Notes under the pieces: generated by a model | Database searches by the model: none | The model's input: the letters and a program-made list of their open reading frames with translations, nothing else | Told to the model about the DNA's origin: nothing | NCBI GenBank assembly: GCA_021463145.1 | Contig: JAJTWZ010000034.1 | Coordinates: 1 to 45,916 of the forward strand | Reading direction: 5' to 3' | Origin: Blastocatellia bacterium | GTDB taxonomy: Bacteria; Acidobacteriota; Blastocatellia; UBA7656; JADIYM01 | Length of the DNA: 45,916 nt | Position numbers and translations under genes: made by a program | Shown here: positions 22,569 through 31,243 of the stretch, in pieces | Numbering within the stretch: the stretch's first letter is position 1 | How the letters are laid out: every line of letters starts with the position of its first letter

Positions 22569-22603
22569 GCGCTCGACTTCCAGACTCCGGAGGCGTGTTC
22601 CCA

Positions 22604-24106
22604 ATGACATTTCCGTTCAGACGCACCCGAAGGTGGGGAGCCTTCGCGGCCGGTATCGTGTTAACGCTCGCGATGCTGGCACCGGCTCCCGCGCACGCGC
22701 AGCAGTCTGCCGCCGAGCTCGAAACGCTCGTAGCGCCGATCGCGCTCTATCCGGATCCGCTGCTGGCACAGGTCCTTCCGGCGTCGACGTATCCGGACCA
22801 GGTCGCCGAGGCTGCGAGTTACGTCGCCAACAACGGCGTCTCCGGCGTCGAAAATCGGGGATGGGACCCTTCAGTGTCCGCAGTCGCTCGTTACTCTGAA
22901 GCCATCCAGTTACTCGGTTCTGATCCACAGTGGACGAATGACCTCGGCACGGCGTTTCTCGATCAGACGTCGGCCGTAATGGATGCCATCCAGCAGATGC
23001 GGAGCCGCGCAAAAGCGTCGGGCGCGCTGAAGGACTCGCCCCAGCAGACCGTGGTCTATCAGGAAGAGGTCGTGCGGATTCTGCCGGCGGACAACGAGAT
23101 CATCTACGTGCCGCAATACGACCCGCAGGTCGTGTACGTCGAGTCGGAGCCGCAGGAGATCGAGATCGAGATCGAGGACGACTGGTACGGGTGGGACGAT
23201 GCCGTCTGGTCCGGTGTCATCGGCTTCGGCGCCGGCGTGGCGATGGGAGCGTGGTTCGACATGGATTGCGACTGGTGGGGCGGCGGCTGCTACTACCACG
23301 GTTTCGGCTGGGGGGGCGGTTCCAACTACTGGCACGGCGGCAACTACAACAACTTCAACCGCAACACCAACATCAACGTCGACCGTCCGGCGTGGAGCAA
23401 TCCTGGAAGGCCAGGCGGGATCGGCAACCGTGGCGATCGAAATCGTCCGTCGCAACTCCCGTCCGACCGGCGCAACAATCGGCAGGACAACCGCGCCGAC
23501 AGGCGTGGCGAACCGGGCCGCGCCGACAACAGGACCAATCGACAGGACAACCGCGCCGACAGGCGTGGCGAACCCGGCCGCGCCGACAACAGGACCAATC
23601 GCCAGGACAACCGCGCCGACAGGCGTGGCGATGCCGGGCGTGGCGGCGACAGGGAACGTCCATCCCAACGTCCGTCGTCGAAGATGGATCAGGATCGTGC
23701 GCGGAAACGCGAGGCGGCTCAGCGCGAGATGCGCGGACGGATGCCTTCGACGAGCGATCGTCGCGCAGGCAGCGCGGCGAACCGTGGCGACGGCGGAAGG
23801 ACCGGCGGCGGTTCTCGAGCGGACCGGCCGAAGGCCTCGGACCGCGGATCGAGCGGCCGAAGTGGCGCTGGCGATCGAAAGTCGCGCGATCCGATGCGCG
23901 GCTACGAGCGGGGATCCGATGCGAGGAGGTCCTCGGATCGTGGTGCGCGCAGCCGGAACAACTCGTCGTTCGATCGAGGGGGTGGCGGAAAGAGCATGCG
24001 CAGCGGCGGAGGCGGCCGGGCGAGCCGGCCGAGCGGCGGCAGCCGCGGCGGTGGCGGACGAAGTGGCGGCGGTGGCCGCGGAGGAGGTGGCCGCCGTGGA
24101 AGATAG
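22604..24106 (+). CDS. DUF3300 secreted protein, copy 1, with 20-aa tandem repeats
   Basis: This 500-aa exported protein has a Tat-like basic N-terminus (FRRTRRW) and a signal peptide to about residue 33 (AHAQQ). The conserved DUF3300 core (about 38-200) reads LVAPIALYPDPLLAQVLPASTYPDQV then DAIQQMRSRA and IIYVPQYDPQVVY. A Trp/Gly/His/Cys patch follows (DMDCDWWGGGCYYHG, about 220). The C-terminal 240 residues are Arg/Gly/Asn/Ser-rich and disordered, with a 20-residue unit repeated from residue 292. The ATG at 22604 is preferred to GTG at 22595 because GGAGG is 10 bases before it and only 1 base before the GTG. The DUF2950 gene follows closely. DUF3300 function is unknown; an envelope role is likely. 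Confidence 0.88.
   Translation: MTFPFRRTRRWGAFAAGIVLTLAMLAPAPAHAQQSAAELETLVAPIALYPDPLLAQVLPASTYPDQVAEAASYVANNGVSGVENRGWDPSVSAVARYSEAIQLLGSDPQWTNDLGTAFLDQTSAVMDAIQQMRSRAKASGALKDSPQQTVVYQEEVVRILPADNEIIYVPQYDPQVVYVESEPQEIEIEIEDDWYGWDDAVWSGVIGFGAGVAMGAWFDMDCDWWGGGCYYHGFGWGGGSNYWHGGNYNNFNRNTNINVDRPAWSNPGRPGGIGNRGDRNRPSQLPSDRRNNRQDNRADRRGEPGRADNRTNRQDNRADRRGEPGRADNRTNRQDNRADRRGDAGRGGDRERPSQRPSSKMDQDRARKREAAQREMRGRMPSTSDRRAGSAANRGDGGRTGGGSRADRPKASDRGSSGRSGAGDRKSRDPMRGYERGSDARRSSDRGARSRNNSSFDRGGGGKSMRSGGGGRASRPSGGSRGGGGRSGGGGRGGGGRRGR
23477..23640 (+). repeat. 60-bp in-frame tandem repeat inside DUF3300
   Basis: Two almost identical 60-bp units (23477-23536, 23537-23596) and a partial third encode NRQDNRADRRGEPGRADNRT-type units. 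Near-identity at DNA level implies recent duplication, so copy number probably varies between strains. The repeat falls in the disordered basic tail. Confidence 0.85.
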
Positions 24107-25116: not shown

Positions 25117-26826
25117 ATGACCATGGCGCGAAGGCTTCTCATGTTCGCCGCGCTCACGGGCGCGGTCGTGCTTTCACTTACCGCCGAGCCGGCGCTCGCG
25201 CAACAGGCCAGCTCAGGGGGTAATACCGACGACCGTATCGAGGCGCTCGAGCGGCGGCTCGAGTCATTCGAGCGCGCCACGAAGGCAGAGATCGAAACGC
25301 TCCGTCGCGAACTCGACGCGCGAACGGCCGAACTCGCCGCCGAGCGCGCGAAGCGCGAGGAGGCCGAACGGCGCGCCGCCGGTGCAGCAGTGGCGCCCAC
25401 CGTCCAGGGTCCACCGGCCGCGCCGGGAACCGTCGCGGTGGCGCAGGTGCCAGAGGGCCATCCGTCGCTCCAGACCGGCGCCGATCAGCGCAACGACCGT
25501 TCCGATCCCCTGCGTGACATGCCGATGAAGGGTGGAGACCTGATCGGCAACGTCTACACCAATGACGCATTCAAGGTCCGGATCGGAGGCTCCCTGCGAA
25601 CTACGATCCAGCACAACTCGACACCCGTCGGCGATGGCGTTTCTCAGGCTCTGCTGCCGAGTCCGACGACGCCAGGCGGCGGCGACAACGCCGGGCGCGA
25701 CAGCCTCCGGATGTTCGCCGGGCAGTCGCGCATGCTGCTCGCGGTGCAGGGGCCCACGACATTGGGCGGAAAGACGTTCGGCTATCTCGAGTTCGACTTC
25801 GCCCGCAACCTGAGCGGCGGCGAGAACGGAGCGATCAATCCGAACCCGCGACTCAGGCACGGCTACCTGCGGTGGATCTTCAACGACGTGGGCAAGGAAG
25901 GCTCCGAGTTGCAGTTCACGGTCGGCCAGACGGGCGGGTACGCGGACCTGATCCCCGACACGGTCGACTTCAACGCGATGACGGGAGGCCTCGGCGTGGT
26001 GCTGCGCCGAAATCCGCGTGCGATGGTCGCCTACCTCATCCCTGTCGGCGGCGGCGGCCGCATCGGAATCGTCGGGGGCGTCGAGCGGCCGTTCCTTGGC
26101 AACGACTCGGTTGGCGGCGACCTGGGCAACGGCGATGTCGGCGAGATCCCGGTGTTCAGTATCGGCGCCGGCTACGAGACGACTTCCCGGCTGCGCATGG
26201 GCGATGATTTTGGAATGCGGAAGCTGCGCTTCGGTGCGCGCTTCGCGACGGGGCGCTGGATCGAGCGGTTCGATGACGGAACGATAGATCCGGACTTCAA
26301 CCTTCAGTCCGGCTTCGACGAGCGCTCGTTCACCGCGAAGGCCATCCACGGCGGTATCTCGATCGACGACCTCGGGTTCAATGCCGAAGGCCGTGCCCGT
26401 ACGTTCTCGTTGCGGATGGGTGGGCTCTGGACCAACGGCGAGGCGCGTTACCTCGATGCGGGCTTCGACCGGCGGGTCGTCGTCGGCGCGGACGGAGATC
26501 TCGAGGCGGCCCGCAGCGCCGGCGGGTTCGTCAATCCGATGTTCTTCTTCACGAACACCGTCAGCGTCAGGTGGGCTGGCGGGGCGCAGTACGCGCTCGA
26601 CGCGTCGCGCCCGGTGGTGACGGGGTCGCTGACGAGTGGGTACTTCCGGACGCGCAACTGGAGCTCGGAAGCGAGCGCCTGGTGGACGCCGGGACCGTTC
26701 ACGTTCGCGGTCGCGTACAACTTCATCAAGACTAACTTTCGGAACGTGGATTTCATGACCGGCGCAAGCACGGATCTCGTGAACAGCAACACGAAGTTCG
26801 AGGCGATCGCGTGGTTCAGTTTCTGA
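25117..26826 (+). CDS. Coiled-coil outer-membrane porin (DcaP-like)
   Basis: This 569-aa outer-membrane protein has a signal peptide (about 1-28, ALAQQ). Residues about 36-90 form a heptad-rich coiled coil (RIEALERRLESFERATKAEI). A linker follows, then a C-terminal beta-barrel of alternating strands from about residue 150 (FKVRIGGSLRTTIQH) to the terminal aromatic residue (IAWFSF), the usual BAM signal. This layout matches DcaP-type trimeric porins, some of which take up dicarboxylates. The next gene is a C4-dicarboxylate carrier, which supports that substrate by context. It starts 28 bp after DUF2950, so it may belong to the palindrome-controlled operon. No good Shine-Dalgarno is visible. 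Confidence 0.8.
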   Translation: MTMARRLLMFAALTGAVVLSLTAEPALAQQASSGGNTDDRIEALERRLESFERATKAEIETLRRELDARTAELAAERAKREEAERRAAGAAVAPTVQGPPAAPGTVAVAQVPEGHPSLQTGADQRNDRSDPLRDMPMKGGDLIGNVYTNDAFKVRIGGSLRTTIQHNSTPVGDGVSQALLPSPTTPGGGDNAGRDSLRMFAGQSRMLLAVQGPTTLGGKTFGYLEFDFARNLSGGENGAINPNPRLRHGYLRWIFNDVGKEGSELQFTVGQTGGYADLIPDTVDFNAMTGGLGVVLRRNPRAMVAYLIPVGGGGRIGIVGGVERPFLGNDSVGGDLGNGDVGEIPVFSIGAGYETTSRLRMGDDFGMRKLRFGARFATGRWIERFDDGTIDPDFNLQSGFDERSFTAKAIHGGISIDDLGFNAEGRARTFSLRMGGLWTNGEARYLDAGFDRRVVVGADGDLEAARSAGGFVNPMFFFTNTVSVRWAGGAQYALDASRPVVTGSLTSGYFRTRNWSSEASAWWTPGPFTFAVAYNFIKTNFRNVDFMTGASTDLVNSNTKFEAIAWFSF

Positions 26827-27101: not shown

Positions 27102-28445
27102 ATGACAATCAAGATCCTGCTCGAATTCCTCGTCGTCCTCGGAGCCCTCGCGATAGGCGCCCGCGTCGGCGGCGTCGGCCTTGGCGTGTGGGGCGGCGTG
27201 GGACTGCTCGTCCTGACGGTCGTCTTCGGCATCGCGCCGACGGCGCCCCCCGTCGATGTCATTCTCATTATCGTCGCCGTCATCATGGCGGCTTCGTCTA
27301 TGGAGGCAGCAGGAGGCGTGGACTACCTCGTCTCCGTCGCCGAGGGGCTGATCCGAAGAAATCCGAAGCGGATCACGATCGTGGCGCCGATCGTGGCGTA
27401 CGCGTTTTCGTTTGCGGCCGGAACGGGCCACATCTTCTATCCGCTGCTCCCCGTCATGTACGAGGTCGCGAGAGAGAACGGTATCCGTCCCGAACGCCCG
27501 ATCGCCGTGTCCACTATCGCATCGCAACAGGCGATCACCGCGAGTCCCGTGTCGGCGGCGACCGCCGCCATGCTCACGCTGCTAGGTCCGGCGAACGTCG
27601 GCCTCGTCGACATCCTCGTCATCACGGTGCCCGCGACGCTCATCGGCGTCATCACCGCGGCGCTCGTCCAGACGCGGATCGGAAAGGAACTCGACGACGA
27701 TCCCGAATACCAGCGGCGGCTTGCGGCCGGCGAGCTCGAACCGGTCAAGTTGAAGGCACCCGACGACGAGAAGTCCGTGGCGCCTGCCCTGCCTGCGGGC
27801 GCCGGACTGAGTGCCGGTCTCTTCTTGGCCGGCGTGGCGCTCATTATCGTGGCCGGCGCTGCACCGCAGATCCGGCCGCAAGTGCCCGGCGCGAACGGAG
27901 CGATGGAACCTGTCGGAATGCCGGTGATCATCGAGATCGTCATGCTCGCCGTCGCGGCCGTGATCCTCCTGCTCTCGAAAGCCCCCGTCGCGAGCGTTCC
28001 ACGCACCAAGACCTGTCAGGCCGGCATCACGGCGGTCGTCGGGATACTCGGCCTGGCGTGGATGGGCGACTCGTTCATCGCCGCCAACAAGGACGTGCTC
28101 CTCGGAGCCCTCGGCGAGACGGCGACGAACTATCCGTCGTTCTTCGCGCTCGGCCTCTTCGCAGCGTCGGTGCTGCTCTACAGTCAGGCGGCGACCACGC
28201 GAGCGCTGATGCCGCTCGGCATCAGCCTCGGCATCGCACCTTACAACCTCATCGCGATGTTCCCGGCCGTCAACGGCTACTTTTTCCTTCCGAACTACGG
28301 AACGATCATCGCCGCGATCAATTTCGACCGCACGGGCACGACTGGTATCGGAAGCTACGTGCTCAATCACTCGTTCATGCTTCCAGGCTTCATCGCGACG
28401 ATCGTCGCGATCGTCGTCGGGCTCGGCATCGCATCCATCTGGTAA
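27102..28445 (+). CDS. dcuA: C4-dicarboxylate transporter of the Dcu family (DcuA/DcuB)
   Basis: This 447-aa inner-membrane carrier has about 11-12 hydrophobic segments. Family hallmarks include IAPTAPPVDVILIIVAVIMA near residue 45, AFSFAAGTGHIFYPLLPVMYEVA and STIASQQAITASPVSAATAA. E. coli DcuA/B exchange fumarate, aspartate or malate for succinate during anaerobic growth. The protein is slightly longer than E. coli DcuA (433 aa), with a hydrophilic central loop. The aspartase fusion begins 10 bp downstream, so transport and use of aspartate are coupled in one operon. DcuA versus DcuB cannot be decided here. Confidence 0.92.
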   Translation: MTIKILLEFLVVLGALAIGARVGGVGLGVWGGVGLLVLTVVFGIAPTAPPVDVILIIVAVIMAASSMEAAGGVDYLVSVAEGLIRRNPKRITIVAPIVAYAFSFAAGTGHIFYPLLPVMYEVARENGIRPERPIAVSTIASQQAITASPVSAATAAMLTLLGPANVGLVDILVITVPATLIGVITAALVQTRIGKELDDDPEYQRRLAAGELEPVKLKAPDDEKSVAPALPAGAGLSAGLFLAGVALIIVAGAAPQIRPQVPGANGAMEPVGMPVIIEIVMLAVAAVILLLSKAPVASVPRTKTCQAGITAVVGILGLAWMGDSFIAANKDVLLGALGETATNYPSFFALGLFAASVLLYSQAATTRALMPLGISLGIAPYNLIAMFPAVNGYFFLPNYGTIIAAINFDRTGTTGIGSYVLNHSFMLPGFIATIVAIVVGLGIASIW

Positions 28446-28455
28446 CGGAGGAGTC

Positions 28456-30318
28456 ATGGGTATCCCGGAAAGCGTTCTCGATCAGGCAGCTTCAACCATG
28501 GGCATTCGGCCCGAAGATCTTCGCGACTTCCTGGCGCACGGCGAATCGGTCAAGTTTGCCGCCGGCGATGTGCTTTTTCACGAGTCGACGCCACGGCAAT
28601 GGTTCGGACTCGTGGAGAGTGGCGAGGTCGCCATCGTTCGAGGGCTCCACGGCTCGACGACTCACCTCAGTTCGATAGGCGACGGCGGCATCCTTGGCGA
28701 GGGCATCTTCCTCGACGACTCGCCGCATTCGGTGGGCGCCGTCGCGAGACGCGACACGGTTGTGCTCCAGATTCCGCGCCGCGAAGTCGAAGCCCTTCGC
28801 GAATCCTCTCCCGACGTTTACTACCGGCTCGTGGCGCGCATCGCCCGCCGTATGCACGAACGCCTTCAGCATCTTTCGGAGCGGCTCGCCGGCCAGGCCG
28901 ATGCGGACCGGGTTCTGACCAGCGTCCGGCGCGAGCACGACCTGCTCGGCGAAAGGGAGCTGCCGGGCGACGTCTACTACGGAATTCAGACAATGCGGGC
29001 GCTCGAGAACTTCCCGATCTCGGGAATCAAGCTAAACAACTTCGACCACTTCATCACGGCACTTGCATTCGTGAAGAAGGCGGCCGCCAAAGCGAACGCG
29101 GATCTGGGCGTGCTCGCGGCGGATCGCGCCGGCGCAATCGCCGCCGCGTGCGACGAGATCATCGCGGGCGAACTGCGTTCGCATTTCGTCGTCGACATGA
29201 TCCAGGGCGGAGCCGGGACGTCGACGAACATGAACGCCAACGAGGTGATCGCCAACCGTGGCCTCGAACTGCTGGGCCACGTGAAGGGCGAATACACGTA
29301 CCTGCATCCGAACGACGACGTGAACTGCTCGCAGTCGACCAACGACGCATATCCGACCGCAATCAAGCTCGGCGTGATCCTTGCGCTCAAGGACACCCTG
29401 GGCGCGATGGGAGAGCTGGCCCTGGCGCTCGACGCGAAGGCGGCCGAGTTCGCCGACGTCATCAAGATGGGCCGCACCGAAAATCAGGACGCGGTTCCTA
29501 TGACACTCGGCCAGGAGTTCGGCGCGTATGCCACGATGATCCGGAGCGCGATGCGAAGCCTGGAACGCGCCGGTGAGGAACTGCACTACATCAACATGGG
29601 CGCAACGGCCATCGGCACCGGAATCAACAGCCCGCCAGGATACGCCGACCGCGTAACGGAGCACCTGCGGGAGGTGAGCGGCTTGCCTGTGGTGAAGGCC
29701 GACGACCTGGTCGAGGCGACTCAGAACGCCGGCGGGTTCGTCCAGATGTCCGCAAACATGAAACGATCGGCCGTTCAGGTCTCGAAGATCTGCAACGACC
29801 TGCGGTGGCTTTCGTCCGGGCCTCGCTGCGGACTCTTCGAGATCCGCCTCCCGGCCATGCAGCCGGGTTCGTCGATCATGCCGGGCAAGGTGAACCCGGT
29901 CATCCCGGAAGTCGTGAGCCAGATCTGCATGCAGATCATCGGCTACGACATGACGATCTCGATGGCGGCCGAAGCTGGCGAGCTCGAGTTGAACATGGCC
30001 GAGCCGATCATGGCCTTCGACCTGTTGCACGGCCTGATGATCCTCAAGAACGCGTGCGTGATTCTTGCGACACGGTGCATCAATGGTATCGAGGCGAATC
30101 GCGACCGCTGCCGCGAGTATGTCGAGAACTCCATCGGGCTCGTCACCGCGCTGGTGCCGGTCATCGGGTACGAGCGCTCGGCATCGGTCGCGAAGACGGC
30201 CCTCGAGTCGGGTGGAAGCGTTTACGAGCTCGTTCTCGAGAACGGGTATCTCACCAAAGCAGAATTGGACGAGCTTCTCACGCCTGAAAAGATGACCGCT
30301 CCGCGCTCGGTCAAGTAA
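28456..30318 (+). CDS. aspA: Aspartate ammonia-lyase fused to an N-terminal cyclic-nucleotide-binding domain
   Basis: This 620-aa protein is about 145 residues longer than ordinary aspartase. Residues about 20-145 form a CRP-type beta-roll (FAAGDVLFHEST, GLVESGEVAIV, ILGEGIFLDD, PHSVGAVARRDTVVLQIPR) followed by a helix. No DNA-binding domain follows. From about residue 155 the chain is a complete aspartase (HDLLGERELPGDVYYGIQT): conserved TSTNMNANEVIANR, NDDVNCSQSTNDAYPTA and the catalytic-loop signature GSSIMPGKVN at 471-480, whose Ser is the general base. It converts L-aspartate to fumarate plus ammonia in the cytoplasm. The fused domain suggests control by cAMP or another ligand, or by heme-like redox input. 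That is inference. GGAGG precedes the start, and dcuA ends 10 bp upstream. Confidence 0.93.
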   Translation: MGIPESVLDQAASTMGIRPEDLRDFLAHGESVKFAAGDVLFHESTPRQWFGLVESGEVAIVRGLHGSTTHLSSIGDGGILGEGIFLDDSPHSVGAVARRDTVVLQIPRREVEALRESSPDVYYRLVARIARRMHERLQHLSERLAGQADADRVLTSVRREHDLLGERELPGDVYYGIQTMRALENFPISGIKLNNFDHFITALAFVKKAAAKANADLGVLAADRAGAIAAACDEIIAGELRSHFVVDMIQGGAGTSTNMNANEVIANRGLELLGHVKGEYTYLHPNDDVNCSQSTNDAYPTAIKLGVILALKDTLGAMGELALALDAKAAEFADVIKMGRTENQDAVPMTLGQEFGAYATMIRSAMRSLERAGEELHYINMGATAIGTGINSPPGYADRVTEHLREVSGLPVVKADDLVEATQNAGGFVQMSANMKRSAVQVSKICNDLRWLSSGPRCGLFEIRLPAMQPGSSIMPGKVNPVIPEVVSQICMQIIGYDMTISMAAEAGELELNMAEPIMAFDLLHGLMILKNACVILATRCINGIEANRDRCREYVENSIGLVTALVPVIGYERSASVAKTALESGGSVYELVLENGYLTKAELDELLTPEKMTAPRSVK

Positions 30319-30415: not shown

Positions 30416-31243
30416 ATGCGAATTGCAGGTTCCGGCGCTCGTGCTCGGCTCTTGACGGCCCTGTGTTTCGCATTCGCCTGCGCAACGCCGGGCTTTGCCT
30501 GGCGGACACTCGCTCAGCACGAAACGCCTCACTGGGACTATGCCGAACATGGTCCGGCAACCTGGGGGGCCCTTTCCCCGGAGTTCGTCGCTTGCGCCGA
30601 GGGGCACAGCCAGTCCCCGATCGACATACGCGACGTCCGGACGACCGAGGAGCCATCCGTCCGCACGAACTTCAGGCCCGCGAGCCTGCGCATCGTCCAT
30701 AACCTCGGCGCGGCGGACCTGATCAATACCGGCCATTCGATTCAGGTGAATTTCCCTCAGGGCGATGCTCTGACGATCGGAGGCGAGGTGTACTCGCTCG
30801 TACAGTTCCATTTTCACGGTCCGAGCGAGCACACCGTGCGGGGCAGGCGATTTCCAATGGAGATGCACCTGGTCCACATGTCCGCGGAACGGAAGCTGGC
30901 GGTGATTGCCGTTCTCATCGAGCAGGGAAAACCGAACAAGGCGTTCGATCCGATCTGTTCGAACCTGCCGGCGAAGCGCGGCGTCGAAGATCACCTCGAG
31001 CACGTGCCGATAGACGTCGAGTTGATTATGCCGAGGGATCGATCGGCGTACCGATACGACGGATCGTTGACGACACCTCCCTGCACCGAAGGCGTCAAGT
31101 GGATCGTTCTCAGGCAACCGGCGCATATCTCGGCGACGCAGATCCGAGCGTTCCGGAAGGTTCTCTGGAAGAACAACCGGCCCGTCCAACCGCTCAATGG
31201 ACGTGCTGTTCTCGCCGACGTGATGCAGGCCGAAGACGAGTGA
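30416..31243 (+). CDS. Alpha-class carbonic anhydrase, periplasmic
   Basis: This 275-aa enzyme interconverts CO2 and bicarbonate. A signal peptide (about 1-30) exports it. The zinc ligands are His132 and His134 (QFHFHGPSEH) and His151 (MEMHLVH), with the gatekeeper Glu in PSEH. SQSPIDI and SLTTPPCTEGVKW are family blocks. Two cysteines (CAEGHS and PPCTEG) can form the usual disulphide. The ATG at 30416 is chosen because AAAGGAG lies 8 bases before it and the signal peptide starts there. It follows the aspartase gene by 97 bp on the same strand. A beta-class enzyme is encoded at 39910-40770, so the cell has both a periplasmic and a cytoplasmic form. Confidence 0.94.
   Translation: MRIAGSGARARLLTALCFAFACATPGFAWRTLAQHETPHWDYAEHGPATWGALSPEFVACAEGHSQSPIDIRDVRTTEEPSVRTNFRPASLRIVHNLGAADLINTGHSIQVNFPQGDALTIGGEVYSLVQFHFHGPSEHTVRGRRFPMEMHLVHMSAERKLAVIAVLIEQGKPNKAFDPICSNLPAKRGVEDHLEHVPIDVELIMPRDRSAYRYDGSLTTPPCTEGVKWIVLRQPAHISATQIRAFRKVLWKNNRPVQPLNGRAVLADVMQAEDE

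Follow-up and report, generated by a model that had tools for sequence, protein, structure and literature searches.

A widespread aspartase fused to a cyclic-nucleotide-binding domain with a non-canonical pocket, possibly controlled by a ligand other than cAMP

We analysed a 45,916-nucleotide stretch of the genome of a Blastocatellia bacterium (contig JAJTWZ010000034.1; hereafter, the window), in which a single open reading frame, uninterrupted from ATG to TAA and without an internal stop, encodes a cyclic-nucleotide-binding (CNB) domain joined in frame to an aspartase (Table 1). Pfam detected cNMP_binding (PF00027) in residues 32-117 with 56 bits (cut-off 27.5), Lyase_1 in residues 165-496 with 303 bits and FumaraseC_C in residues 562-614. 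In the AlphaFold model, the CNB beta-roll is followed by a long C-helix, a low-confidence linker (residues 144-155) and the aspartase fold. Fold prediction, which the preliminary description of this locus had proposed as a check, confirmed a CRP-type CNB fold: the domain model aligned with GlxR-cAMP (3r6s) at Z 17.6 and an rmsd of 3.0 over 147 residues, and the closest solved folds to the CNB domain alone were GlxR and CRP with cAMP (Z of about 17). As that description had also stated, no helix-turn-helix was found in the protein by Pfam or in the AlphaFold model; the C-helix leads straight to the aspartase, and the C-terminal helix-turn-helix that characterizes CRP/FNR transcription factors is absent.

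Table 1. Positions in the window of the fusion gene, its domains and key residues, and the adjoining transporter gene
Feature	Position	Strand	Basis
DcuA-type C4-dicarboxylate transporter (PF03605, 450 bits)	27102..28445	+	Pfam, NCBIfam
Ribosome-binding site GGAGG, 5' of the fusion ATG	28447..28451	+	Sequence
CNB domain-aspartase fusion, 620 aa	28456..30318	+	ORF, Pfam, NCBIfam
CNB beta-roll (PF00027), residues 32-117	28549..28806	+	Pfam; fold match to GlxR-cAMP
R47, beta2-beta3 loop arginine (101/102 fusions)	28594..28596	+	Alignment
E82, equivalent of CAP Glu72 (99/102)	28699..28701	+	Alignment
H91 at the CAP Arg82/PKA Arg209 position (102/102)	28726..28728	+	Alignment, gapless versus PDB CNB domains
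C-helix, residues 119-150	28810..28905	+	AlphaFold model
R136 in the C-helix (102/102)	28861..28863	+	Alignment
Flexible linker between C-helix and aspartase, residues 144-155 (pLDDT <50)	28885..28926	+	AlphaFold model
Aspartase, residues 155-617	28918..30306	+	PRK12273, 717 bits; Z 43.6
E342 at the Q/H active-site position (GRTENQDAVP)	29479..29481	+	Alignment
Catalytic SS-loop GSSIMPGKVNP	29866..29898	+	Alignment of fusions

The gene for the DcuA-type transporter ends 10 bp upstream of the fusion. An operon with dcuA, as proposed earlier, is consistent with the arrangement in the window but is not a general property of the family: among the 81 fusion loci compared, a Dcu gene adjoins the fusion only in the window and in two others (L010 and L011), and a gene for an AspT aspartate-alanine antiporter only in L009 and L010. 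We thus rejected the dcuA operon as a general feature; it is restricted to the small, horizontally scattered clade of the window. Because Dcu or AspT adjoins fusions in that clade, these neighbours support aspartate as the probable substrate there, and there only. Directly behind the fusion lies an open reading frame for an alpha-type carbonic anhydrase (PF00194; 30320-31243, forward strand, start probably near 30416), which possibly belongs to the same transcription unit. On the same strand, upstream of dcuA, are a porin-like open reading frame (25117-26826, 569 aa, with a coiled-coil-like N-terminus) and a gene for a DUF3300 protein with a long, repetitive Arg/Gly/Asp-rich tail (22595-24106). 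The porin-like product had no Pfam or PDB sequence match, leaving its earlier label, DcaP-like, unsupported. A role in anaerobic fumarate respiration, which had also been suggested, was not established, because the genome encodes a haem-copper oxidase, its SDH/FRD homologues score below cut-off, and it carries a second, unfused aspartase-family paralogue (L147; G000 C108:95548-96924; PRK12273, 634 bits).

The enzyme half scored 717 bits against the NCBIfam aspartate ammonia-lyase model PRK12273 (cut-off 510) and 664.7 against the equivalog TIGR00839, slightly below its cut-off of 681.2. We rejected a class II fumarase identity, because the fumC_II score was only 485 (cut-off 664.75). The closest solved structures are aspartases (Z 42-44). 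The aspartase part shows 48-54% identity and Z 40-43 to AspA of Escherichia coli (1jsw), AspB of Bacillus YM55-1 (1j3u/3r6v) and the Elizabethkingia enzyme (6wng), and shares with them the SS-loop and the catalytic residues; unlike the fusion, these enzymes have no N-terminal sensor domain. The intact catalytic loop reported in the preliminary description was borne out by the alignment of 81 fusions, in which the SS-loop (GSSxMPxKxNP), with the catalytic Ser and the substrate-binding residues, is invariant or nearly so. Judged from these features, the enzyme half is a complete aspartase, predicted to convert L-aspartate to fumarate and ammonia. One active-site position differs: where AspA/AspB have Gln191/His188 and the motif reads GRTQL or GRTHL, the clade of the window has GRTEN (E342). 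In AspB, this position is occupied by His188, which forms part of the carboxylate pocket and contacts the amine (PMC11744663). A change of substrate through E342 was considered and played down, and E342 is probably a tolerated variant, because unfused aspartases (L154, L157, L168 and L177) also carry GRTE at this position.

The CNB pocket was analysed by alignment and per-position entropy in 102 distinct fusions, whose CNB domains mostly have about 25-35% identity with that of the window. The positions of lowest entropy are G56, H91, R136, R47 and E82; the signature R47-E82-H91-R136 is kept, whereas most other CNB positions vary. We take E82 and R136 to be the counterparts of CAP Glu72 and Arg123. 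The fusion thus has these equivalents and the CNB fold in common with GlxR (3r6s), MtCRP (4a2u) and CAP (1g6n), but differs from CRP and GlxR in the attached enzyme in place of a helix-turn-helix, the replacement of Arg82 by His and the extra loop arginine R47. The cassette reads approximately LGEGxLxDDSPHSTSARA in the fusions versus GELALxxxxPRAATVxA in canonical domains, with no gaps; CNB domains in the PDB align with it equally without gaps and have Arg where the fusions have His. The Gly at the beta2-beta3 site (G169 in PKA) is present in only 17 of the 102 fusions and is Ser in the window. Among the hallmarks of canonical cNMP binding, the CNB fold and the cassette are therefore present, but Arg209 is absent and Gly169 is mostly lost, and these two residues are co-conserved in canonical cAMP-binding families, as described by Kannan et al. 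(PMC2246266). Divergent cassettes are known to bind other ligands, such as haem in CooA and chlorophenol acetic acid in CprK (PMC2246266). The alteration of the RxA/S phosphate-binding motif noticed earlier is hence real and family-wide, and is accompanied by a new loop arginine. We conclude that the pocket, as far as conservation can tell, is under strong selection and non-canonical.

For comparison, we examined further CNB domains of the same genomes or phylum; in most of them, the canonical PRSA motif is retained and R47 is absent. The His change is not confined to fusions, because a stand-alone CNB protein (L128) has PHSA, without the loop arginine. Another stand-alone CNB protein of 165 aa (L142:5885-6382; G241 C270) bears the R47/H91 signature (FAPREWFG ... 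NHSTGA); it adjoins an Rnk-like gene, with no aspartase, and is possibly a trans-acting version of the domain.

We scanned 84,980 species genomes and obtained 242 relatives; the best 80 of these are all full-length fusions of the same architecture. They comprise 42 from Bacteroidota, 14 from Ignavibacteriota, 3 each from Gemmatimonadota and Zixiibacteriota, 2 each from Pseudomonadota and Thermodesulfobacteriota, and one each from Myxococcota, Verrucomicrobiota and Electryoneota, the rest having no phylum assignment; the named bacterial phyla with the fusion number at least nine. In the phylum of the window, at least 36 of the 297 sampled genomes match through the linker into the start of the aspartase, and 21 fusions besides that of the window were examined at full length and included in the set of 102. 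In the phylum of L013, 11 of 198 genomes contain the fusion. The family thus has a broad but patchy distribution. The preliminary description had named misassembly as a finding that would overturn the fusion. An artificial join of adjacent genes, by misassembly or by loss of a stop codon, has practically no chance of being correct and is refuted by the comparative data, since the identical join is present in 80 of the 80 best loci, from independent assemblies that include isolates (Propionivibrio limicola and Perlabentimonas gracilis) and complete chromosomes (CP053447 and CP058732).

Horizontal spread is suggested by the closest relatives of the fusion in the window, which come from Rhodocyclaceae, a Myxococcota MAG, Desulfobacteraceae and Verrucomicrobiales; among the order-mates of the window that were searched, only unfused enzymes were found. 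On the aspartase-domain tree, which was built quickly and has some long branches, the fused label requires 3 changes, of which at least two are forced, versus a mean of 22.5 for shuffled labels. This would indicate a near single origin, possibly one gain followed by two losses. Two unfused aspartases (L163 and L165) branch inside the fused clade; they have probably lost the sensor domain, and the CNB domain would thus be dispensable in some lineages.

What the CNB domain does can be explained in several ways. In a canonical second-messenger switch, cAMP or cGMP would bind to the domain and activate or inhibit the aspartase, in line with the confirmed CNB fold and the retention of E82 and R136, and R47 could stand in for the phosphate contact. 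Searches for cyclases of class III (PF00211) and class I (PF01295) found class III enzymes in the genome of the window and in 25 of 30 fusion genomes, so that cNMP binding in a different mode is possible. At this frequency, however, cyclase presence is uninformative as a predictor, except in the complete Kapaibacterium genome (L058/G050), which contains the fusion but no class III or class I cyclase and thus counts against a canonical switch. Since H91 replaces the phosphate-binding Arg in all 102 fusions and R47 is new, a simple cAMP switch appears unlikely, and the plain cNMP-gated switch proposed in the preliminary description fits poorly with a pocket in which the residues that define cAMP binding (R209 and G169 in PKA numbering) have been replaced. 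The regulatory subunit of kinetoplastid PKA, in which the canonical cassette Arg is likewise replaced, provides a proven case of ligand change: it binds nucleosides, and a Glu at the Ala202 site contacts the ribose (PMC10959531). We rejected a nucleoside pocket of this trypanosome type, because the defining Glu is absent from the fusions, where the Ala202 site is mostly Ser or Ala (Ile in the window).

The His at the Arg209-analogous position of CooA ligates haem (PMC2246266), and the invariant H91 could similarly make the domain a haem sensor in which the CO or NO state gates the aspartase. We consider this very unlikely: the 102 fusions contain no second conserved Cys or His and no conserved N-terminal Pro as a candidate second axial ligand, the cassette segment can be aligned to nucleotide-binding CNB domains with no gaps, and E82 and R136 are retained. 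The fusion also differs from CooA in having an enzyme in place of the helix-turn-helix. The domain may instead have ceased to bind any ligand and serve in oligomerisation, stability or protein interaction, which would agree with its loss from L163 and L165 and with the free variation of the linker and of the sequence outside the pocket. This explanation, too, is quite unlikely, because the most conserved residues lie at ligand-pocket positions rather than on the helix surface, and H91 and R136 are invariant at a domain identity of about 30%.

The reading that we favour, with moderate confidence, is that the locus encodes a genuine aspartase of a widespread family whose activity is set by the CNB domain fused to it, in which the pocket has been re-engineered. 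We infer ligand control from the conservation of this pocket; the domain most likely gates the aspartase through a ligand other than cAMP, and the ligand is probably not cAMP or cGMP bound in the usual mode. The ligand bound in the pocket would be small, probably a non-canonical nucleotide or an anionic metabolite, and R47 and H91 would hold it in place of the usual arginine. In CNB domains generally, ligand binding moves the cassette helix and the C-helix. In the fusion, binding would shift the phosphate-binding helix and the C-helix, and the short linker would transmit this movement to the aspartase, where it would reach the N-terminal part of the tetramer and the active site. As the C-helix is followed almost immediately by the first strands of the aspartase, such a movement could alter the dynamics of the tetramer or of the active-site loops. 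In the clade of the window, the gated step would be the formation of fumarate and ammonia from aspartate that DcuA or AspT has imported.

Aspartase is a classical enzyme and an industrial biocatalyst, and we know of no sensor-domain control of it. In the open literature, to which our search was limited (subscription papers lay outside it), no paper describing an aspartase-CNB fusion was found, and the fusion is apparently undescribed in the literature searched. Mycobacterial Pat acetyltransferases, in which a CNB domain is fused to a GNAT domain, are likewise bacterial enzymes with an N-terminal CNB domain, and the fusion gave a weak match to the NCBIfam model ActPatMycb56; however, their enzyme is different, and they are under canonical cAMP control.

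In this study, we described a multi-phylum protein family in which, as we tentatively propose at somewhat less than even confidence, the CNB fold has been re-tooled by an Arg-to-His change and a loop Arg so that a metabolite other than a cyclic nucleotide directly controls an aspartase and sets nitrogen and fumarate flux. The interest of the system lies in the ligand of the pocket more than in the operon, and the four-residue signature R47-E82-H91-R136 makes the question of this ligand directly testable. If the proposal is correct, the CNB fold would gain a new class of ligand, nitrogen and fumarate flux would be set by a new allosteric signal, and, in anaerobic and facultative bacteria, a cellular signal would act directly, at the post-translational level, on the junction of aspartate, fumarate and ammonia.
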